Source: Pseudonocardia nigra (GTDB taxonomy: Bacteria; Actinomycetota; Actinomycetes; Mycobacteriales; Pseudonocardiaceae). Taken from it: DNA of 64,000 nucleotides. The stretch is from contig NZ_JAHKRK010000003.1 of assembly GCF_019396355.1 (NCBI RefSeq), positions 1 to 64,000 of the forward strand, written 5' to 3'. The position numbers were made by a program, and so were the translations under genes. The notes below the pieces were generated by a model. The model was not told where the DNA came from and ran no database searches. It worked only from the letters and a program-made list of their open reading frames with translations. Positions 43 through 10,662 of this stretch are shown piece after piece (within the stretch, counting starts at the first letter, position 1; every line of letters starts with the position of its first letter).

Positions 43-98
43 TCGGGACGGCACACAGCGCCGGCGGTGGGTGCCGTCCCGACGCGCTGTGTGCCGTC
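43..98. repeat. Overlapping, mutually exclusive inverted repeats before selA
   Basis: Two perfect stems share bases 47-55. Bases 43-55 pair with 71-83 (13 bp), and bases 47-61 pair with 84-98 (15 bp, arm GACGGCACACAGCGC). They cannot form together, which is the geometry of an attenuator, but they also resemble the terminator-like intergenic hairpins elsewhere in the window, for example 23483-23556. The region lies 50-110 bases before the likely selA start. Function is inferred. Confidence 0.6.
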
Positions 99-150
99 GG
101 TGATCCACCGCGCCGGGCGGGCCGAGGGGCGCGATCGTAGGGTGGTGGCC

Positions 151-1506
151 GTGAGCGTCGTCGATCCCCGACGGCGGGTGCCGCGCACCGACGCCGTGCT
201 GGCCGAGCCGCAGGTGGCCGCCGCGAGCGCGCGGCTCGGGCGCGGGCTGGTCAAGGCCGCCGTCGCCGCTGCACAGGAGCGGGCCCGGCGGGGGGAGCTG
301 CCCGCCGAGCACGACGCCGTCGTCGAGGCGGTGCTGGACGCGCTGCCGTCCGCCGCCACCGGGCTGCGCCCGGTCCTCAACGCCACCGGCGTGCTCCTGC
401 ACACGAACCTGGGCCGCGCGCCGCTGTCACAGGCGGCCCGGGCCGCGCTCGACCTCGCCGCCGGCACCTGCGACGTCGAGCTCGACCTCGCCACCGGCGG
501 CCGCGGCAGCCGTGGCGCCTCTGCGATCGAGGCGTTGCTCGCCGCCGTCCCCGGCGCGGCCGCCGCGCACCTCGTCAACAACGGCGCCGCAGCACTCGCC
601 ATGGCCGCGATGGCGCTGGCCACGGGCACCGTTGACGGGCGCTCCCCTGACGCTGTGCGCCGGGAGATCGTCATCGCCCGCGGCGAGCTCGTCGAGATCG
701 GCGACGGCTTCCGCATCCCCGAGCTGTTGACGGCCACCGGTGCGCGGCTGCGCGAGGTCGGCACGACGAACCGGGTACGCCGCGACGACTACGCGGCCGC
801 GATCGGCGAGCAGACCGCGTTCGTTCTCAAGGTCCACCCGTCGAACTTCCGGATCACCGGCTTCACCCGCTCGGCGGGCATCGAGGAGCTCACCGGCCTC
901 GGGGTGCCGGTGGTGGAGGACATCGGGTCCGGCCTGCTCGCCCCGCACCCGCTGCTGCCCGACGAGCCCGACGCCGCCACCGCGCTCGCCCAGGGCGCCA
1001 CCCTCGTCACCGCATCCGGCGACAAGCTCCTCGGCGGACCGCAGGCCGGGCTGCTGCTCGGCGCACCGGGTGAGGGCGCCGAGCTGGTGCAGCGGATCCG
1101 GCGCCACCCGCTGGCCCGCGCGATGCGGGTGGACAAGCTCACCCTCGCCGCGTTCGAGGCGACCCTCCGCGGCCCGGTCCCGCCCACCCGGGTCGCCCTC
1201 GACGCGGATGCCGGGGCCCTGCGCGCCCGGGCGCAGCGCCTGGCCGCCCGGCTCGTCGCGCATGGAGTCGACGCCACCGCCGTCGACTCCGTGGCGACCG
1301 TCGGCGGCGGCGGGGCGCCCGGCGTCACGCTGCCCAGCGCCGCTGTCGCCCTGCCCGAACGGTTCGCCGCCGCGCTGCGGGCGGGCGACCCGGCCGTGCT
1401 CGGGCGCCTCGAACACGGCCGTTGCCTGCTCGACCTGCGCGCGCTCACCCCCGAGGCCGACGAGGAGCTCGCGGCCGCCGTACTGAAGGCGCACCATGCC
1501 GACTGA
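151..1506 (+). CDS. selA: L-seryl-tRNA(Sec) selenium transferase SelA
   Basis: PLP-dependent enzyme that converts Ser-tRNA(Sec) to Sec-tRNA(Sec) using selenophosphate, in the cytoplasm. The protein shows the family's N-terminal LRPVLNATGVLLHTNLGRAP segment, the HLVNNGAAA loop and the PLP lysine in SGDKLLGG. With the GTG at 151 as start this is Lys-292, close to Lys-295 of the E. coli enzyme, and the length (451 aa) fits the family. The frame is open back to 67, but the extra N-terminal residues are low-complexity and cross the upstream inverted repeat; GTG at 142 or 145 is also possible. The stop overlaps the selB start by 11 bases, so the two are surely co-transcribed. No selD, selC or selenoprotein gene is visible here. 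Confidence 0.93.
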   Translation: MSVVDPRRRVPRTDAVLAEPQVAAASARLGRGLVKAAVAAAQERARRGELPAEHDAVVEAVLDALPSAATGLRPVLNATGVLLHTNLGRAPLSQAARAALDLAAGTCDVELDLATGGRGSRGASAIEALLAAVPGAAAAHLVNNGAAALAMAAMALATGTVDGRSPDAVRREIVIARGELVEIGDGFRIPELLTATGARLREVGTTNRVRRDDYAAAIGEQTAFVLKVHPSNFRITGFTRSAGIEELTGLGVPVVEDIGSGLLAPHPLLPDEPDAATALAQGATLVTASGDKLLGGPQAGLLLGAPGEGAELVQRIRRHPLARAMRVDKLTLAAFEATLRGPVPPTRVALDADAGALRARAQRLAARLVAHGVDATAVDSVATVGGGGAPGVTLPSAAVALPERFAAALRAGDPAVLGRLEHGRCLLDLRALTPEADEELAAAVLKAHHAD

Positions 1507-3340
1507 CGGCCGTCGGCACGCCGTGGTCGCGACGGCGGGGCACGTCGACCACGGCAAGTCCACGCTGGTCCGGGCGCTCACCGGGATGGAGCCCGACCGG
1601 TGGGCCGAGGAACGGCGCCGCGGCATGACCATCGACCTGGGCTTCGCCTGGACGGAGCTGCCGTCGGGCGGCACGGTCGCGTTCGTCGACGTCCCCGGCC
1701 ACGAGCGGTTCGTCACGACCATGCTCGCCGGCGTCGGCCCGGTCCCGGCCGCACTGCTCGTCGTGGCCGCCGACGAGGGCTGGATGCCGCAGTCCGCCGA
1801 GCACGTCGACGCGCTCGCGGCGCTCGGCGTCCGCGACGGCCTGCTGGTGATCACCCGCAGCGATCTGATGGAGCCGGAGCTCGCCCGCGACGAGGCCCGC
1901 GCGCACCTCGCCGGTACCCCGCTCGCCGACGTGCCCGCGGTGTGCGTCTCGGCCACCACGGGCACCGGGATGGACGCTCTGCGCGCCGCGCTGGACGACC
2001 TCGTCGCCCGCCTCCCCGGCCCGGACGCGGGCGCGGACGTGCGGCTGTGGGTCGACCGCGCCTTCACCATCCGGGGAGCGGGCACCGTCGTCACCGGCAC
2101 GCTCGGGGCGGGGCGGATCCGGGTGGACGACGAGCTCGAGCTGGCCTCGGCCGAGGGCACCCGGCGGGTGGCGGTGCGCGGGCTGCAGAGCCTCGGCGCG
2201 CCGGTCGACGAGGCGCGCGGGGTGGCCAGGGTGGCGGTGAACCTGCGCGGCCTGCCCAAGGACGCGGTGGCCAGGGGTGACGTCCTGCTCGGTCCGGGCG
2301 CGTGGCTCACCACGGACCTGGTCGACGTGCGTTGCCACGGCCTGCGCACGGACACGGGCGCCGAACCGGCCGCGTTCCCGGAGGAGCTGACCCTGCACAT
2401 CGGCGCGGCGGCCGTCGTCGCACGCGTGCGGCCGCTGGGCGGCGACACGGCCCGGCTGCGGCTGCGACACCCGCTGCCGCTGCGCATCGGCGACCGCGCG
2501 GTGCTGCGCGACCCGGGACGGCGCGAGGTCGCCGCGGGCGTCACCGTCCTCGACGTCCGGCCGCCCCCGCTTCGCAGGAGGGGCGCTGCGGCGCGGCGGG
2601 CCGCCGAGCTGACGGAGATGGCGAGCGTCGCGTCGGCGGTGGGCGAGCTCGCCCGGCGCGGGATCGCCCGCCGCGCCGACCTCGTCGCGATGGGTGTGCC
2701 CCTCGAGGAGCTCGACGCCCTCGCGCACGCCGGCACCCCGGCCGCGGCGGGCTGGCTGGTCGACCCGGCGCTGGCGGTGCAGCTCACGGCCCGGCTGGCC
2801 GCCGCCGTCGCCGAGCACGACGCCGCCGACCCGCTCGACCCCGGGCTGCCCACGGAGGCGGCGCGGCGGGCGGTCGGGCTCCCGGAGCCGCGGCTGGTCG
2901 AGGCCGTGCTGCGCCACGCCGCCCGCGTTGGTCCGGATCCGGGGCTGGCCCTTCGCGACGGCCGCGTCACGCGCTCGGCCGGGGCCGGGCTGCCGGCAGC
3001 GGTCCGGGCCGGCCTGGACGTCCTGCGTGCCGACCTCGAGCGCGCCCCGTTCGCCGCGCCGGAGGCCGGCAGGCTCGCCGAGCTCGGCCTCGGGCCGCGC
3101 CAGCTCGGGTCCCTGGTCAAGGCAGGTGAGCTGCTGCGGGTCGCCGACGGCGTCGTGCTGCTCCCCGGGGCGGACGCGCGCGCCGTCGAGGTGCTCTCCG
3201 GTCTCGGCCCCGAGTTCACCCTCAGCGCGGCCCGGCAGGCGCTGGGCACGAGCAGGCGCGTCGCCGTGCCACTGCTCGAGCTGCTCGCCCGCACCGGTCG
3301 CACCGTCCGAACCGCGGAGGGGACGCATCGGCTGGCATAG
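1496..3340 (+). CDS. selB: Selenocysteine-specific elongation factor SelB
   Basis: GTPase that delivers Sec-tRNA(Sec) to UGA codons followed by a SECIS hairpin. Residues 15-23 are the P-loop GHVDHGKST; RGMTIDLGF (switch I) and DVPGHERFV (G3) follow. The G4 position reads ITRSDL rather than NKxD, as in several bacterial SelBs. Domains II/III occupy about 175-350 and the C-terminal half carries the winged-helix repeats that bind SECIS RNA. At 614 aa it has the length of E. coli SelB. The ATG lies inside the selA 3' end, so translational coupling is likely. The presence of selAB implies that the genome encodes at least one selenoprotein, typically a formate dehydrogenase, outside this window. 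Confidence 0.95.
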   Translation: MPTDGRRHAVVATAGHVDHGKSTLVRALTGMEPDRWAEERRRGMTIDLGFAWTELPSGGTVAFVDVPGHERFVTTMLAGVGPVPAALLVVAADEGWMPQSAEHVDALAALGVRDGLLVITRSDLMEPELARDEARAHLAGTPLADVPAVCVSATTGTGMDALRAALDDLVARLPGPDAGADVRLWVDRAFTIRGAGTVVTGTLGAGRIRVDDELELASAEGTRRVAVRGLQSLGAPVDEARGVARVAVNLRGLPKDAVARGDVLLGPGAWLTTDLVDVRCHGLRTDTGAEPAAFPEELTLHIGAAAVVARVRPLGGDTARLRLRHPLPLRIGDRAVLRDPGRREVAAGVTVLDVRPPPLRRRGAAARRAAELTEMASVASAVGELARRGIARRADLVAMGVPLEELDALAHAGTPAAAGWLVDPALAVQLTARLAAAVAEHDAADPLDPGLPTEAARRAVGLPEPRLVEAVLRHAARVGPDPGLALRDGRVTRSAGAGLPAAVRAGLDVLRADLERAPFAAPEAGRLAELGLGPRQLGSLVKAGELLRVADGVVLLPGADARAVEVLSGLGPEFTLSAARQALGTSRRVAVPLLELLARTGRTVRTAEGTHRLA

Positions 3341-3408: not shown

Positions 3409-3816
3409 ATGTCCGAGACCCGTGAGAACCTGCCGTCCGGCCCCTCGTCGATCCCACGCGGGGGGGACGTCGACGACCAGATCGGGCTCGTCACGTCCCA
3501 CCCTGATGAGGGCCAGGTCGTGATCGAGGTCGCCGGTGAGGTCGACATGCTCACCTCGCCGCAGCTGCGTGGCGCCGTGCTGGAGCAGTTCGAGGCGGGT
3601 GCCGGGCTCGTGGTCCTCGGCCTGGACGGGGTCACGTTCCTGGGCACGAGCGGTCTGGCCGTCCTCATCGAGGTCCGGGAGGCGGCGCAGAACACCGGGG
3701 TCACCCTGCGGTTGGCCTGCACGGCACGGCGGGTGCTGCGGCCGCTGACGATCGCCGGGCTCATCCCACTCTTCGACATCCACGACACGGTCGACCAGGC
3801 GTTGACCGCCGCCTGA
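3409..3816 (+). CDS. STAS-domain anti-sigma factor antagonist
   Basis: RsbV/SpoIIAA-like protein of 135 aa. After about 25 unstructured residues a STAS domain follows (about 28-130), with VIEVAGEVDMLTSPQLR and the switch helix VTFLGTSGLAVLIEV; Ser-81 is the expected phosphorylation site. In this family the unphosphorylated antagonist traps an RsbW-type kinase and frees a sigma factor. It is not next to a kinase gene, but a full partner-switch module (5.2-9.4 kb) lies close by, so it may be an additional input to that switch; this is inference. Selection of ATG 3409 is supported by the nearby -10. Confidence 0.88.
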   Translation: MSETRENLPSGPSSIPRGGDVDDQIGLVTSHPDEGQVVIEVAGEVDMLTSPQLRGAVLEQFEAGAGLVVLGLDGVTFLGTSGLAVLIEVREAAQNTGVTLRLACTARRVLRPLTIAGLIPLFDIHDTVDQALTAA

Positions 3817-4463: not shown

Positions 4464-5063
4464 TCAGGCGGGCTCGTCGCCGACCACGGACAGCTCGAGG
4501 CAGCGGTAGCGCAACAGCGGGATGCCGTAGACCTGCGCGATGCGCTGGGCGGCCCGGTGGACGACCGCCCGGCTCGGGTCGGCCGGGCCGGGGGCGGGCG
4601 CCACCCCGTACAGGCCGGGCTCCGGGTCGAAGCCGACGAGCTCGCTGAGCGCGGCGATCACGTCGCCCTCCGCGGAGCCGTCGAGGGGCTGGCGCAGGCC
4701 GAGCCGGTGCAGGTGCAGGCCGGGCAGCTCGAGCCGGGCGACGTCCTCGCGCACGTGGTCGACATCGTCGTCGTCGACGTCGTCCGCGTCGTCGTCCAGG
4801 TCGTCGTCCCACGCATCGGCCGCCGGCAGGACGCTCACCGTGCCGGGCGCGGCCACCGGTGGGTCCTCGGCGGTGACCAGCAGGTCGACGTGCGGGAAGC
4901 CCTCGACGAGCCGGGCGAGATCCGATTCCGGGCGCAACAGCTCCATCGGGCTGACGGCGACGGCCACCGCGCGCCGTCCGTGCGTGGGAACGGCAGACCG
5001 GCGGGATGCGGCCGGTACCGCAGGCGCGGAGATACCCATCTCCGGAACCGCGACCATCGACAA
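4464..5063 (-). CDS. Conserved-looking hypothetical protein
   Basis: 199 aa, function not recognised. The N-terminus is Ala/Val-rich without a convincing signal peptide. Residues about 85-110 form a very acidic linker (DDDLDDDADDVDDDD), and the C-terminal part (about 115-195) looks globular, ending in IAQVYGIPLLRYRCLELSVV. Codon use and third-position GC fit a real gene. It is convergent with the WhiD-type gene across a terminator hairpin and lies downstream of the LOV-phosphatase gene on the same strand, separated by 189 bases, so it may have its own promoter. No motif ties it to a pathway. Confidence 0.6.
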   Translation of the reverse strand: MSMVAVPEMGISAPAVPAASRRSAVPTHGRRAVAVAVSPMELLRPESDLARLVEGFPHVDLLVTAEDPPVAAPGTVSVLPAADAWDDDLDDDADDVDDDDVDHVREDVARLELPGLHLHRLGLRQPLDGSAEGDVIAALSELVGFDPEPGLYGVAPAPGPADPSRAVVHRAAQRIAQVYGIPLLRYRCLELSVVGDEPA

Positions 5064-5252: not shown

Positions 5253-7379
5253 TCAGGAACGCAGGCGCACCGCGAGCAACGCGACGTCGTCGCGCAGCGG
5301 CGCGGGGACGCAGACCTCGAGGATGCGGTCCACCACGGTGTCGGCGGCCGCGTCCGGCGGCAGCTCGACCAGCGTCTGCTCGAGCAGCTGGGTGCGCTCG
5401 TCGGCGTCGTCGCCCGCCACGTCGGTGAGCCCGTCGGTGTAGAGCAGCAGCAGCGACCCCGGCGGGCAGCGCAGCGTGGCCTCCGTGCGGCCGAGGCCCG
5501 CCCGCCGTCCCAACCCGCGGACCGCCCCGATCATGGGTGAGCGGTACTCCTCCAGCCGCCGCAGCGCGCCGTCGGGGCGCAGCAGCAGCGGGGCGGGGTG
5601 CCCCGCGTTCGCGTACCGCAGCAGCCGCTCCCCCGTCGCGTCGGGCGGCTCGAGTCGGGCGTAGACGGCGGTGGCCATCGCAGCGGTCTCCAGGCCCTGC
5701 ACCAGCTGATCGCACCGGTCGAGCACCGAGCCGGGCGCCCCGCCGTCCCACGCGAAGGACCGGACGACGGCGCGCAGCTGGCCCATCGCCGCCGCCGCGC
5801 GCAGGTCGTGGCCGACCACGTCGCCGACCGTGAGCCCGATGGCTCCGTCGGGCAGGTCCAGCACGTCGTACCAGTCCCCGCCCACCTGGTTGCCGTCGAC
5901 GCCCACCAGGTAGCGGGCCGCGGTCTGCACCCCGTCGACGTCGGGCACGGCGGGCAACAGGCTGCGCTGCAGCGTGACGGCCGCGGCGTGCTCGGCCTCG
6001 TAGAGCCGCGCGTTGTCGACGGCGAGCGCGGCCCGGCCGGCGAGGTCGGTGGCCAGGTGCAGGTCACGCGGCCCGTACCGGCGCCCGTACGGGTGCTGGG
6101 TGACCAGCGTGAGCGCGCCGAGCACCCGCCCGCGGGCCCGCATCGGCACCACCATCGCCGAGCGCAGCCGCAGCTCGTCGTACACCGCGGCCGCGGCGGG
6201 CTCGCCCGGGTAGCGGTCGGTGCCGCGCTCGGGCAGCTCGGGGTCCAGCAGCGCCTGCTCGCCGCCGAGCACGTCCCCGGTGCGGCTGCCGTCGCCCACC
6301 TGGTAGCCGCGCACCGCGCCGAGCTCGCGCAGCAGCACCTCGTCATCCGGGTCCCGGCCGGCCACCGCCACCCGCTGCGCGAGCGCGGACCCGGGGCGGT
6401 CCAGCAGGTCGACGGCGCACAGGTCGGCCAGCTGCGGCACCACACTGCGCGCGAGCCGCTCACAGGCGTCGGTGACGTCGAGGGCGCCGGTCATGCGGGT
6501 GGTGGCCTCCGCGAGCAGCCGCAGCCGGGACCGCGCCTCCTCGGCCTCGGCGAGTGCGGCCGTGCGCTCCTGCTCGACGCTCACCCGCTCGGTGACGTCG
6601 TTCTGCACGCCCAGGAAGTTGACGAGATCGCCGGCGCCGTCGAACACCGGCGAGATCGACAGCTGGTTCCAGAAGGCCCGCCCGTCGCGACGGTAGTTGA
6701 GCAGCACCTCGGTGACGGGCTCGCGCCGCCGCAGCGCCTCCGCGATCCGCCGCACCGCCGCCCGGTTCGTGTTCGGGCCCTGCAGCAGCCGGCAGTTGCG
6801 CCCGACCACCTCGCCATACGGATAGCCGGTGAGGGCCTCGAACGAGGGATTGACCCAGATCAGCGGGTCGTCGGGCTGCCGGGGATCGGAGATGCTGAAC
6901 GCGGTGTCGGTGGCGACGATCGCCCGCTCGCGCAGCGCCGCCAGCCGCCGCCGGTCGCCGTGCTCGGTGCCCCGCAGCGAGAGCAGCACCACCAGCGACC
7001 GCCCCTCGTCGGCCGGCCCAGTGGGCGAGAGCGGGAACCCCGTGACCCACAGCAGCTCAGGGGCACGGTCGGCCGCGTCGCGCACCGCCACCGGCTCCCC
7101 CGCCACCGGCAACCCGCGCGCCACCAGCGCGATCGGCGAGCTGCCCGGCACCGGCAGCCCACCCAGGCCGGTGAGCCGGGCCGCCTCGCTCCAGGCGTCC
7201 ACGTCGAGCGGGAGCCGGACGTCATCACCGGTGAGCGCGACGGCCGCCGCGTTGGCCGAGACGACCCGCCGCCCCTCCAGCACGAGCACGGCGGCCGGGC
7301 CGGGCCCCAGGACGTGCAGGAGGTCACCGGCGGCCACGGTCGCGGCGCCGGCGTCCGCCGCGTTCCCGCCGTCCGCCAC
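5253..7379 (-). CDS. Blue-light LOV - GAF - SpoIIE-type PP2C phosphatase
   Basis: 708-aa soluble signalling protein. Residues about 15-140 are a divergent PAS-like region. Residues about 151-265 are a LOV domain: GRNCRLLQG places the photo-adduct cysteine at C196 with R197 and Q200, and the other flavin contacts are present (N228 in LNYRRDG, N238 in FWN, Q259 in FLGVQNDVTER). A GAF domain follows (about 285-460), then a PPM/SpoIIE phosphatase (about 470-705) with GGDWYDV, VGDVVGHDLRA, NAGHPAP, LLLYTDGLTD and DDVALL metal-site motifs. By analogy with RsbU/RsbP it should dephosphorylate a STAS antagonist; light control of that activity is inferred from the intact LOV residues. It is divergent from a STAS-RsbW-sigma operon. 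The GTG at 7379 sits 6 bases after a TAGGCT hexamer. Confidence 0.93.
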   Translation of the reverse strand: MADGGNAADAGAATVAAGDLLHVLGPGPAAVLVLEGRRVVSANAAAVALTGDDVRLPLDVDAWSEAARLTGLGGLPVPGSSPIALVARGLPVAGEPVAVRDAADRAPELLWVTGFPLSPTGPADEGRSLVVLLSLRGTEHGDRRRLAALRERAIVATDTAFSISDPRQPDDPLIWVNPSFEALTGYPYGEVVGRNCRLLQGPNTNRAAVRRIAEALRRREPVTEVLLNYRRDGRAFWNQLSISPVFDGAGDLVNFLGVQNDVTERVSVEQERTAALAEAEEARSRLRLLAEATTRMTGALDVTDACERLARSVVPQLADLCAVDLLDRPGSALAQRVAVAGRDPDDEVLLRELGAVRGYQVGDGSRTGDVLGGEQALLDPELPERGTDRYPGEPAAAAVYDELRLRSAMVVPMRARGRVLGALTLVTQHPYGRRYGPRDLHLATDLAGRAALAVDNARLYEAEHAAAVTLQRSLLPAVPDVDGVQTAARYLVGVDGNQVGGDWYDVLDLPDGAIGLTVGDVVGHDLRAAAAMGQLRAVVRSFAWDGGAPGSVLDRCDQLVQGLETAAMATAVYARLEPPDATGERLLRYANAGHPAPLLLRPDGALRRLEEYRSPMIGAVRGLGRRAGLGRTEATLRCPPGSLLLLYTDGLTDVAGDDADERTQLLEQTLVELPPDAAADTVVDRILEVCVPAPLRDDVALLAVRLRS

Positions 7380-7385
7380 TTGACC

Positions 7386-7391
7386 AGCCTA
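7386..7391 (-). promoter_or_regulatory. -10 hexamer of the LOV-phosphatase gene, abutting a MITE-like element
   Basis: On the minus strand TAGGCT precedes the GTG at 7379 by 6 bases. Its first base coincides with the first base of the terminal repeat at 7391, so any -35 would lie inside the inserted element. Confidence 0.5.
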
Positions 7392-7541
7392 GGGCGTGTC
7401 CGGTGGATCCGGGGTCGATGAACTCGGTGATCCAGGGCGTTCCTGGCAAGGCGGAGGCCCGAGCCGTCGTACCTGGCGACCACGCCGCCAGGGGCGTCCT
7501 GGGCGCCGAGGGCGCGGCCAGGGGTCCGCCGGACACGCCCT
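7391..7541. mobile_element. MITE-like element with terminal inverted repeats
   Basis: A 151-base non-coding segment whose ends are inverted copies: left AGGGCGTGTCCGGTGGATCC, right (reverse complement) starting AGGGCGTGTCCGGCGGACC. They match at 16-17 of the first 19 positions. The interior (7430-7500) contains further short inverted segments such as CCAGGGCGTTCCTGG. No transposase is encoded. A target-site duplication is not obvious. It fits a miniature inverted-repeat element mobilised in trans by an IS transposase; this is inferred from structure only. Confidence 0.65.
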
Positions 7542-7707
7542 GGGGGGACCGCAGGCGGTGCGCGCCCCCACGATCGGTCGGCCTCCGGCGGGAGTAGGGT
7601 CACAGGTGATGCGGTTGAGACCCCAGCCGCCCGACCCGGGCCCGTCCGGAGATCCGGAGGGGTCTGCCGCGATCCGGCCCGGCCCCGTCCGACCGGAGGT
7701 GGAGAAG

Positions 7708-8097
7708 ATGCCCGATCCCGCCCGGCACACTGCCGGCCCGGACGCGACGGACGAGCTGCTCGACACGCGGATCGACCGTCCCCGACCGGGCGTCGCCGTG
7801 CTCGCCGTGCACGGCGAGGTCGACACGCTCACCGCCTCGGCGTTCACGGGGGCCCTCGAGGAGCTCACCACCGCGGACGAGCCCGTCCTCGTCGTCGACC
7901 TGACGGGTGTGACGTTCCTCGCCTCCACCGGTCTCGCCGCCCTCATCCAGGCCGCCCGCCGGGCCGAGGAACGCGCGCTGAGGCTGCGGCTGGTCGCCCC
8001 GGCACGCGCGGTCCGGCGCCCGCTGGAGATCACCGGCACCGACCAGCTGTTCGAGATCCACGCCGACGTGATCGGCGCGACCGCGGGCAGCGATTGA
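7708..8097 (+). CDS. STAS-domain anti-sigma factor antagonist of the light-linked module
   Basis: 129 aa. The STAS fold spans about 28-120: VAVLAVHGEVDTLTASAF, then VVDLTGVTFLASTGLAALIQA with the phospho-acceptor Ser-73, then FEIHADV near the C-terminus. It is the likely substrate of the divergent LOV-phosphatase and of the RsbW-like kinase encoded next. ATG 7708 is preceded by GGAGGTGGAGAAG, a good ribosome site; an ATG at 7609 would add a Pro-rich tail without domain character. It is a paralogue of the STAS protein at 3409. Confidence 0.9.
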   Translation: MPDPARHTAGPDATDELLDTRIDRPRPGVAVLAVHGEVDTLTASAFTGALEELTTADEPVLVVDLTGVTFLASTGLAALIQAARRAEERALRLRLVAPARAVRRPLEITGTDQLFEIHADVIGATAGSD

Positions 8098-8133
8098 TCC
8101 CCACCCACCGGGGGTAGCAAGATGACCGATCAC

Positions 8134-8178
8134 GTGCCCAGTGCTGATGTGCCCGATACTGGTGTGCCCAGTACCACC
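8134..8178 (+). repeat. Three tandem 15-base repeats upstream of the RsbW-like gene
   Basis: GTGCCCAGTGCTGAT, GTGCCCGATACTGGT and GTGCCCAGTACCACC follow head to tail at 8134, 8149 and 8164. They end just before the AAGGAG ribosome site of the next gene. They could be translated (VPSAD-VPDTG-VPSTT) if the frame starts at 8122, or be an iterated binding site in a leader. Confidence 0.6.
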
Positions 8179-8196
8179 GGAAGGAGACCCGGCAGC

Positions 8197-8634
8197 GTGC
8201 CCGACCTGGACTCCCCCTCGTCCCAGACTCTGGACGGGGCGTCGACCGTGGAGGTCCGGACGTCGGCCACCGCGTCGCTGATCCCGACGATCCGCGCCGT
8301 GGCCTCCGACCTGGCCGCGCGGGCGGACTTCGACCTCGACGCCATCTCCGACCTCCGGATGGCCGTGGACGAGGCCTGCGCCACCCTCGTGGACGTAGCC
8401 GCCCCGTCGTCCATGCTGCAGTGCACCTTCCTGGTGCGCCCGGAGCGGATCGAGGTGACCGCTGAGGTGCAGGCCGAACAGGCCGACGCCACGGTCTCCA
8501 CCGAGACGTTCGGCTGGCGGGTCCTGCAGACCCTCGCCGACGAGGTCGCCGTCCACCACGTGCCGGGGGCCAACGGTTCAGCACCGACCGTGGGGATCCG
8601 CTTGGACAAGCGCTCCGGCGACCTACTGCGGTGA
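8197..8634 (+). CDS. RsbW-like anti-sigma factor (HATPase_c_2 kinase)
   Basis: GHKL-type Ser kinase / anti-sigma factor. The ATP-binding N-box region reads DLRMAVDEACATLV, with Thr where B. subtilis SpoIIAB has Asn; actinobacterial SigF anti-sigmas vary here too. Later segments include TFGWRVLQTLADEV. It should bind and silence the sigma factor encoded next and phosphorylate the STAS antagonists. The start is chosen at GTG 8197, 10 bases after AAGGAG (8181-8186), giving 145 aa. A longer form from ATG 8122 (170 aa) would translate the three 15-base repeats. Its TGA overlaps the sigma start (GTGA), so the two products are made in coupled amounts, as is usual for sigma/anti-sigma pairs. Confidence 0.88.
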   Translation: MPDLDSPSSQTLDGASTVEVRTSATASLIPTIRAVASDLAARADFDLDAISDLRMAVDEACATLVDVAAPSSMLQCTFLVRPERIEVTAEVQAEQADATVSTETFGWRVLQTLADEVAVHHVPGANGSAPTVGIRLDKRSGDLLR

Positions 8635-9410
8635 CCCGGGCCGATCCGGAGTACGGCCACCTCGTCCCCCTCCTCGAGCGCTATGCCGCCCTGGGACCCG
8701 ACGACCCGGGCCGTGAGGCCCTCCGCGAAGAGCTCGTGCGGGGCTTCCTCCCGGTGGCCCAGCACATCGCGCGTCGCTTCTCCAACCGCGGCGAGCCCCT
8801 CGACGACCTCGTCCAGGTGGCGACCGTCGGGCTGATCAACGCGGTCGACCGGTACTCGCCCGAACGCGGCACCGACTTCTTCTCGTTCGCCGTGCCGACG
8901 ATCAGCGGCGAGGTGCGCAGGCACTTCCGCGACCTCGGCTGGTCGATGCGGGTGCCGCGGCGCCTCAAGGACCTGCACGTCTCGATCAACGGGGCGGTGT
9001 CGGAGCTGTCGCAGAGCCTCGGCCGGGCGCCGAAGCCCAGTGAGATCGCCGATCGGCTGGGCGTCCCGGTCGCGGACGTGCTCGAGGGCCTCGAGGCGTC
9101 GGAGGCCTACCGCAGCTCCTCGTTGGACGAGATGCTGTCGTCGGAGCAGGGCAGCGCCACCGTCGGCGAGCTCGTCGGGGAGGCCGACGCCGAGCTCGAC
9201 CGCGTCGACTTCCGGCAGGCCCTGCGGCCGGTGCTGTCCGAGCTGGCCGAGCGCGAGCGCACGATCGTGCTGCTGCGGTTCTTCGGCAACATGACCCAGA
9301 CGCAGATCGCCGACCGCGTGGGCATCTCGCAGATGCACGTGTCCCGGCTGCTCGCCCAGACCCTCGACCGGTTGCGCACGCGCCTCGACCCCGAGACCCG
9401 CGTCGGCTGA
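8631..9410 (+). CDS. RNA polymerase sigma factor, SigB/SigF subfamily
   Basis: 259-aa group 3 sigma factor. Region 2: LPVAQHIARRFSNRGEPLDDLVQVATVGLINAVDRYSPERGTDFFSFAVPTISGEVRRHFRD (residues about 40-100, given here only as landmark span DDLVQVATVG). Region 3 holds RVPRRLKDL and a helix-turn-helix-like SLGRAPKPSEIADRLG. Region 4 ends in FFGNMTQTQIADRVGISQMH. This is the general-stress/development type found in Streptomyces (SigB, SigF) and mycobacteria (SigF). GTG start overlaps the anti-sigma stop. With the LOV-phosphatase and STAS genes it forms a complete partner-switching cassette, so the expected output is light- or stress-induced transcription. Confidence 0.93.
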   Translation: MTRADPEYGHLVPLLERYAALGPDDPGREALREELVRGFLPVAQHIARRFSNRGEPLDDLVQVATVGLINAVDRYSPERGTDFFSFAVPTISGEVRRHFRDLGWSMRVPRRLKDLHVSINGAVSELSQSLGRAPKPSEIADRLGVPVADVLEGLEASEAYRSSSLDEMLSSEQGSATVGELVGEADAELDRVDFRQALRPVLSELAERERTIVLLRFFGNMTQTQIADRVGISQMHVSRLLAQTLDRLRTRLDPETRVG

Positions 9411-9429: not shown

Positions 9430-10662
9430 ATGACCGGGCAGCCGGAGCACGTCGTCGTCGTCGGGGCAGGCCTGGGCGGGCTGCGCACCGCCGAACAGCT
9501 GCGCTCGGCCGGGTTCCAGGGACGGATCAGCCTCGTCGGCGCGGAGCCGCACCCGCCGTACGACCGGCCGCCGCTGTCCAAACAGGTCCTCACCGGCGAG
9601 TGGGCGCCCGAGCGGGCCCGGCTCGCCGCACCCGATGCGCTCGAGGACCTCGGGGTGCGCACCCACCTCGGCCTGCGGGCGGTGGCCCTGCGGTCGCACG
9701 AGGCGGGCCCGGGCCACGAGGTGGAGCTGTCCGACGGCGCCACGCTGCACAGCGACGCGCTCGTCGTCGCGACGGGGTTCGTCCCGCGGACCCTGCCCGG
9801 ACAGCTCGCGCAGGTGCACACCCTGCGCACCCTCGAGGACGCCGTCGCACTCCGCGGCACCCTGGAACGGGTCGGATCGCTGCTCGTCGTGGGCGGCGGG
9901 TTCATCGGCGCCGAGGTGGCGAGCGCCGCCCGGGCCCGCGACATCGCTGTGACCGTGCTGGAGGCGCTGCCCGTGCCGTCGGTGCACGCGCTCGGGCCGG
10001 AGGTCGGCGCGCTCGCCGCACGGCTGCTCACCGAGGGTGGGGTCGCGCTGCACACCGGGGCGCTCGTCGCGGGCTTCGTGGAGGCCGGGGACGGCGTGTG
10101 CGTCGAGCTGGCCGACGGGACGCAGCACGCCGCCGACGCCGCCGTCGTGGGAATCGGGGGGGTGCCGGACCTGGGCTGGCTCGACGGCACCGGACTGGAC
10201 GTGCGGACCGGCATGGGCTGCGGGCCCACCGGCCGGGTGCACGGGCTGGCCGCGGCGTGGGCCGTCGGCGACGTGGCCGTATGGGACGACCCGGTGCACG
10301 GCGACCGGCATCGCAACGAGCACTGGACGAGCGCGGGCGATCAGGCCGCCGTGGTGGCCCGCGACATCCTGGGGGCGCAGCCCCCGCCCCCCGCGGTGCC
10401 CTACTTCTGGTCCGACCAGTTCGGGCTGAAGATCCAGCTCATCGGCCGGCCGGACGTGGCGGGCGAGGTCGTCGCCCTGCACGGGGCCGGACTCGACGGC
10501 GGACCGGTGCGCGGCACCGTCGTCGGCTACCTCGACGGCGAGCACCTGGCGGCCGTGGCCGGTTTCGGGGCGGCCCGGTTCGTGGCCCGCTACCGCCCCC
10601 TGGTGGCGGCGCGCGCGACACGCACCGAGACCGAGGCCCTGGCGGCGACCCTGAACCGGTAG
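9430..10662 (+). CDS. FAD-dependent NAD(P)H reductase (ferredoxin reductase-like)
   Basis: 410 aa, pyridine nucleotide-disulfide oxidoreductase family lacking the redox disulfide. N-terminal FAD site VVVVGAGLGGLRTAEQL, then PYDRPPLSKQVL typical of rubredoxin/ferredoxin reductases of oxygenase systems (ThcD, PdR type). The NAD(P) site is LLVVGGGFIGAEVAS and the second FAD motif is AAWAVGDVAVWDD; a reductase C-terminal domain follows with YFWSDQFGLKIQLIG. It starts 19 bases after the sigma gene with a GAGGGGAG ribosome site, so it may be the last gene of the sigma operon or an early target. No oxygenase or ferredoxin partner is adjacent. Confidence 0.88.
   Translation: MTGQPEHVVVVGAGLGGLRTAEQLRSAGFQGRISLVGAEPHPPYDRPPLSKQVLTGEWAPERARLAAPDALEDLGVRTHLGLRAVALRSHEAGPGHEVELSDGATLHSDALVVATGFVPRTLPGQLAQVHTLRTLEDAVALRGTLERVGSLLVVGGGFIGAEVASAARARDIAVTVLEALPVPSVHALGPEVGALAARLLTEGGVALHTGALVAGFVEAGDGVCVELADGTQHAADAAVVGIGGVPDLGWLDGTGLDVRTGMGCGPTGRVHGLAAAWAVGDVAVWDDPVHGDRHRNEHWTSAGDQAAVVARDILGAQPPPPAVPYFWSDQFGLKIQLIGRPDVAGEVVALHGAGLDGGPVRGTVVGYLDGEHLAAVAGFGAARFVARYRPLVAARATRTETEALAATLNR

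Follow-up and report, generated by a model that had tools for sequence, protein, structure and literature searches.

The question raised by this locus is how blue light might reach a SigF-type sigma factor in Pseudonocardia nigra. Within the first 64,000 nucleotides of contig NZ_JAHKRK010000003.1 (forward strand; this whole stretch is the window below), a minus-strand gene encoding a predicted photoreceptor phosphatase with LOV, GAF and SpoIIE domains is divergent from STAS1, rsbW and sigF on the plus strand, which encode in turn a STAS anti-sigma antagonist, an RsbW-like protein and the sigma factor. The initial annotation of this DNA had described the arrangement as a complete partner switch. 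A kinase role for the RsbW encoded next to sigF is not credible, and therefore the switch appears to be incomplete in the window, with the opposing kinase encoded elsewhere. We propose, as a moderately probable reading, that through this locus blue light acts on a partner switch of the kind that controls SigF in mycobacteria. The P. nigra genome is available as a draft assembly in 601 contigs, with a completeness of 96.3% and a contamination of 5.6%.

The phosphatase gene (5253..7379, minus strand) has a GTG start and encodes 708 amino acids, in which Pfam identifies PAS_9 at residues 169-264 (2.7e-19), GAF at 304-454 (4.8e-8) and SpoIIE (PF07228) at 510-706 (E 2.8e-40). Alignment with solved LOV domains delimits the LOV domain to residues 153-265 (6585..6923, minus strand): the top solved-structure matches to this segment are LOV domains, the first being an aureochrome-like protein (E 4e-32), and the NCBIfam model YtvA_fam matches residues 151-281 (1e-40) with 139.8 bits, under its whole-protein cut-off of 250. 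It is followed by the GAF domain (about residues 300-456; 6012..6482, minus strand), matched by Pfam GAF, GAF_2 and GAF_3, and by the SpoIIE/PPM phosphatase domain (5262..5852, minus strand). LOV photoreceptors are defined by a GxNCRFLQ-type motif with the adduct cysteine plus flavin contacts from two asparagines and a glutamine. The P. nigra protein carries GRNCRLLQG at residues 193-201, with C196, together with N228, N238 and Q259, so that the intact photo-site described by the initial annotation, in one chain with GAF and SpoIIE, was borne out by the open reading frame and by the Pfam and structure matches.

Orthologues of the phosphatase are encoded by 38 of 62 genomes of the genus, that of P. 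nigra included in both numbers (E 6.1e-242 or better). The LOV quartet is intact in all 38; changes within the nine-residue photo-motif are found at positions 194, 195 (one genome, G004) and 198. Besides the PF07228 match, eight phosphatase residues (D502, D505, D520, H524, D525, D649, D697 and D698), among them the presumed metal-binding acidic residues, are kept in 38/38. Four orthologue matches begin at residue 126-141 (G017, G042, G028, G054); the first two of these have an open frame of just 578 amino acids. Among the best 80 of 500 named relatives, the 11 matches of at least 59% identity are all from Pseudonocardia. Sequence comparison thus supports a LOV domain that looks photochemically competent, coupled to a phosphatase with conserved acidic residues.

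The genes on the opposite side are located as annotated, with Pfam and NCBIfam matches: STAS1 (7708..8097, plus strand, 129 amino acids), rsbW (8122..8634, plus strand) and sigF (8631..9410, plus strand), which overlaps rsbW by 4 bases. In 28 of the 38 orthologue-bearing genomes the phosphatase gene and STAS1 form an adjacent divergent pair, separated by 185-436 bases, and this recurrence speaks against a chance arrangement. In the remaining ten, STAS1 lies ~4.5 kb off (one genome), farther along the same contig at a distance of ~13-25 kb (six) or on another draft contig (three). An RsbW was found in 61 of the 62 genomes; G055, which gave no RsbW match, is left out of the 61-genome counts. The regions read were the 38 orthologue-bearing loci and 23 other RsbW loci, STAS rows were retained only if they hold their motif, and absence of STAS1 means absence from those regions. 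Defined in this way, STAS1 is present in 48/61 genomes (47 with FLASSGL, the window with FLASTGL), and in 38/38 loci with the phosphatase versus 10/23 without it (Fisher p 1.7e-7, a value made too small by kinship among the genomes). These observations support a genetic tie, read from sequence, between the phosphatase and the anti-anti-sigma/anti-sigma/SigF set.

The RsbW-like protein had been taken for the kinase of the switch, and here the annotation does not hold. Its N-box reads AVDEACAT in 58, AVDEACTT in two and AVDETCAT in one of the 61 genomes; the asparagine of kinase-competent RsbW is a threonine in every one. As read from the sequence, the N-box of the window protein is followed by neither D.G nor G.G[LIM], so that the N, G1 and G2 boxes of a GHKL kinase such as RsbW/SpoIIAB are not in place. 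Across the genus, loose patterns after the N-box occur in 23/61 (D.G) and 10/61 (G.G[LIM]) rows, with places not matched row by row; because such simple patterns are uninformative, the case for kinase loss is built on the N-box asparagine and on the reading of the window protein. The top solved matches, 8ih8 (E 2.7e-14) and 8jzt (1.8e-13), are both named anti-sigma-F factor RsbW and are presumably M. tuberculosis proteins. In phmmer alignments the N-box asparagine is absent from 8ih8 and present in 6m36, a serine-protein kinase RsbW that we take to be from B. subtilis. This kinship and the place beside sigF mark the protein as a predicted anti-SigF factor of the UsfX/RsbW1 type. There is a precedent in Mycobacterium smegmatis, where RsbW1, encoded beside sigF, is reported to act as anti-SigF and gave no in vitro phosphorylation of RsfB; Ser63 of RsfB was phosphorylated by RsbW2 only, and a phosphomimic lost RsbW1 binding (PMC7693655). 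Dephosphorylation of RsfB is ascribed to the PP2C protein RsfR (PMC7693655, PMC10950880). By sequence and by this analogy, the window RsbW is most likely an anti-sigma factor rather than a kinase.

Two STAS proteins are candidate substrates of the phosphatase. STAS1 most likely starts at the ATG at 7708, after GGAGG, and not at 7396, as judged from the sequence; its motif FLASTGL contains the phospho-acceptor-like T74. The second STAS gene mentioned in the initial annotation, here STAS0 (3409..3816, plus strand, motif FLGTSGL), does exist, with a Pfam match. Matches to PF01740 and TIGR00377 over cut-off and a Ser/Thr at the acceptor position, which we presume from the motif after SpoIIAA, are those expected of STAS antagonists. 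STAS1 tracks the phosphatase by presence and absence. STAS0 tracks it by position, lying within 2.5 kb in 38/38 genomes, including those in which STAS1-rsbW-sigF is 13-25 kb off. STAS0 is also present without the phosphatase (57/61 genomes in the fetched regions); its motif is FLGTSGL in all 38 phosphatase-bearing genomes and FIGTSGL in G014, which has no phosphatase. Presence and absence would thus favour STAS1 as the substrate and position would favour STAS0, and both may be substrates.

In the proposed mechanism, a separate kinase encoded elsewhere in the genome would, in one light state, phosphorylate the STAS antagonist and so keep it from binding RsbW, which would then hold SigF. Blue light would generate a flavin-C196 adduct, and the signal would pass through the GAF domain and the helix preceding the PPM domain to alter phosphatase activity; dephosphorylated STAS could then bind RsbW and free SigF. 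Activation by light would be the likelier direction. A direct control of sigma activity by light is our inference; so are the light dependence and its direction, the GAF input, and which proteins act as kinase and substrate. What stands of the original interpretation, on sequence and conservation, is the LOV domain, the phosphatase and the link to the SigF set; the neighbouring RsbW as the kinase is not supported.

To follow the phosphatase beyond the genus, 297 genomes of the family were surveyed (match threshold 1e-90, three candidates scored per genome). Matches were obtained in 39/297 genomes, from 5 of 46 genera including that of the window; of the 22 genomes with matches in other genera, 10 loci were read. 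Five g42 loci keep the LOV cysteine and show no STAS, RsbW or SigF by genus profiles; a sixth g42 match (G308) does not cover the LOV domain. Linkage is kept in G097, of another genus, where SigF, RsbW and a STAS0-like gene adjoin a cysteine-bearing orthologue and STAS1 was not found. Three orthologues from genera g2 and g10 (G107, G062 and G070; loci L281, L282 and L283) have lost the LOV cysteine and kept the two asparagines and the glutamine; these loci have a STAS0-like gene at ~5-7 kb from that of the phosphatase, with no RsbW or SigF. On a tree they form one clade (support 1.0) within a 15-member clade (1.0) that is otherwise cysteine-bearing, with weaker branches (0.785 and 0.0) between the two. 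A second group lacking the cysteine comprises Actinotalea, Cellulosimicrobium and related sequences. LOV proteins without the cysteine can signal through flavin reduction (PMC4682037).

How far do other explanations account for the same locus? A classical, complete RsbV-RsbW-SigB switch, in which the neighbouring RsbW serves as anti-sigma factor and as STAS kinase, would agree with the 4-base overlap of rsbW and sigF and with a PF13581 match above cut-off, and the weak point of the case against it is that 23 of the 61 rows contain a loose G1 pattern and 10 a loose G2 pattern. The threonine at the N-box in 61/61, the lack of either glycine motif in the window protein, the same missing asparagine in 8ih8 set against its presence in 6m36, and the failure of M. 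smegmatis RsbW1 to phosphorylate RsfB (PMC7693655) make this explanation improbable. A more serious contender, if still a tentative one, is that STAS0 is the true substrate and STAS1 an unphosphorylated or otherwise regulated antagonist. The invariant proximity and motif of STAS0 speak for it, as do G097, where the STAS0-like gene was the only STAS gene found near the orthologue, and the three cysteine-less loci with their STAS0-like genes; against it, STAS0 is kept in genomes without the phosphatase, whereas every locus with the phosphatase has STAS1.

It is also conceivable, and in our judgement rather unlikely, that the phosphatase works chiefly in a different partner switch, or as a sensor of redox state or of a GAF ligand, with light a minor factor. 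In favour of this, the genome holds 25 STAS matches, 47 HATPase_c_2 matches (22 over cut-off) and three SigBFG factors that exceed theirs, and the g2 and g10 orthologues lack the cysteine, as do LOV proteins that can signal by flavin reduction (PMC4682037); the cysteine is, however, kept in 38/38 within the genus, where the SigF linkage is kept as well. A blue-light input to a mycobacterial-type SigF switch remains the reading that we prefer. A bolder form of it would be that a SigF switch whose anti-sigma factor is no longer a kinase takes its input from a photoreceptor phosphatase made of a single protein, that the light arm and the kinase arm at another locus evolve separately, and that across the family the phosphatase has been kept as a photosensor, repeatedly lost, or turned cysteine-less and possibly redox-sensing; this extension we regard as speculative.

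Several observations weigh against the preferred reading. The kinase for the switch was sought among the GHKL candidates of the genome and none could be assigned. Cross-talk is possible, because six SpoIIE matches occur genome-wide and three SigBFG factors score above cut-off. The phosphatase is missing from 24/62 genomes of the genus, 23 of which keep RsbW and a few of which are incomplete drafts, so it is an optional input. The Fisher value for STAS1 is too small because the presence labels are clustered on the SigF+RsbW tree (the phosphatase changes state 11 times and STAS1 5 times, where shuffled labels give 18.6 and 11.9). Nor is the phosphatase SigF-bound everywhere, since in the stretches read the genus profiles detect neither RsbW nor SigF at five g42 loci or at those of Geodermatophilus, Nocardioides, Cellulomonas and others. 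Finally, the mycobacterial-type SigF promoter GTTT-N14-18-GGGTA occurs 0 times in the window (0.06 expected), and we make no case for autoregulation.

In contrast to the window RsbW, 8 rows from 14 other HATPase loci of the P. nigra genome pass a pattern of N-box asparagine, G1 and G2, having been selected by it; they represent seven distinct open reading frames, as L126 and L127 are the same. An RsbW with the N-box asparagine is paired with a STAS gene on C250. It was set aside as not clearly conserved: some match at 1e-15 is found in 45/62 genomes, and the listed matches other than the query itself are all at most 49% identical. A GHKL-GAF-SpoIIE-like protein on C157 (GAF by resemblance) has orthologues in 37/62 genomes and was rejected as missing from 15 of the 38 phosphatase-bearing ones. 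In G038, which lacks the LOV phosphatase, the GHKL-SpoIIE protein adjoins STAS0, whiB, STAS1, rsbW and sigF (L100); its P. nigra counterpart is on another contig than the SigF locus. A 1680-residue open frame on C157 (L190) matches, from first to last, PAS, SpoIIE, HATPase and STAS, resembling the make-up described for Rv1364c (PMC7693655).

The sigma factor itself scores 282.3 bits with TIGR02980 (cut-off 234.35), placing it in the SigB/SigF/SigG group; the SigF model NF005514 is not reached (335.5 versus 372). Upstream of STAS1, a TAGGGT -10-like hexamer (7595-7600) is followed by an inverted repeat, CGGTTG-N6-CAGCCG (7612-7629), the whole spanning 7595..7629 on the plus strand. The combination recurs in 17/28 adjacent genus loci, the pattern having been chosen after viewing the alignment, and gives four genome matches versus one for the reversed pattern; it also precedes STAS1 in G021, where the phosphatase is on another contig (L117). 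The repeat alone averaged 0.0 in 200 shuffles and as RNA would include one G-U pair. For the phosphatase gene itself, a search for such a -10-like element shared among the loci established none (2/28, with starts taken from match ends and so unreliable). A pattern similar to the mycobacterial type gave three sites in 1.06 Mb of genus loci, none placed upstream of any query gene, and one spacing, GGTTT-N16-GGGTA, gave five genome sites versus 0 for the reversed pattern. Since isorenieratene (carotenoid) genes belong to the SigF regulon of M. smegmatis (PMC7693655), photoprotection is, by analogy, a plausible output of the switch.

Upstream, the STAS0 gene is accompanied by selA-like, selB-like and WhiB genes. 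The selA-like and selB-like genes occupy 67-3340 (plus strand); the one tRNA that ARAGORN detected in the window is a tRNA-Leu, and it detected no selenocysteine tRNA there. Between whiB and the phosphatase gene, 4464-5063 (minus strand) is a likely gene, its frame picked by codon GC pattern; its product has no Pfam match, and resembling stretches occur in 56/70 genus loci including the window, and overlapping frames match too. A FAD/NAD ferredoxin-reductase-like gene (9430..10662, plus strand), identified by Pfam, is often the downstream neighbour in genus loci, and we claim no switch role for it.

The PAS domain of RsbP is of non-LOV type, and YtvA has the make-up LOV-STAS. Among known systems, the locus resembles the SigF switch of M. 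smegmatis in its non-kinase anti-sigma factor beside sigF, separate STAS antagonist and PP2C input (PMC7693655, PMC10950880); the M. smegmatis phosphatase, by contrast, has a receiver domain and is histidine-kinase-driven, whereas that of P. nigra has LOV and GAF domains and is encoded at the sigF locus. It is like B. subtilis RsbP and RsbU in joining a sensor domain through a linker to a PPM phosphatase acting on a STAS antagonist, and the dimer-linker route of PPM activation has been proposed as general (PMC12143880). RsbP works with RsbQ and RsbU with RsbT (PMC10950880, PMC12143880), unlike the P. nigra protein, which combines LOV and GAF in one chain and faces an RsbW without kinase motifs. 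In YtvA/Lmo0799, too, blue light reaches a SigB-type sigma factor through a LOV domain (PMC4844311); there, YtvA is part of the stressosome (PMC4844311), and its chain holds no phosphatase. LOV-SpoIIE pairing is named among the typical outputs of bacterial flavin photoreceptors (PMC4844311), so both this class and the action of light on SigB via YtvA are already known. Literature searches, in which subscription papers were thinly covered so that absence is not proven, returned no characterised LOV-SpoIIE protein at a SigF locus. On the present evidence, what is new is the direct coupling at the SigF locus with an RsbW lacking kinase motifs; the interest lies in this linkage and in the cysteine-less orthologues that occur naturally in other genera.

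Should the proposal be true, natural controls would be provided by the genomes without the phosphatase, those without both phosphatase and STAS1, and the orthologues that lack only the cysteine. A domain name alone is no ground for calling a sigF-adjacent RsbW a kinase. In that case, too, blue light would reach a sigma factor of the general-stress type in actinobacteria by a short path encoded in a compact set of genes, without a stressosome or a two-component system, if the proposal is true. The LOV-phosphatase layout, kept in many relatives, suggests that light helps to set the stress response in this soil actinobacterium.

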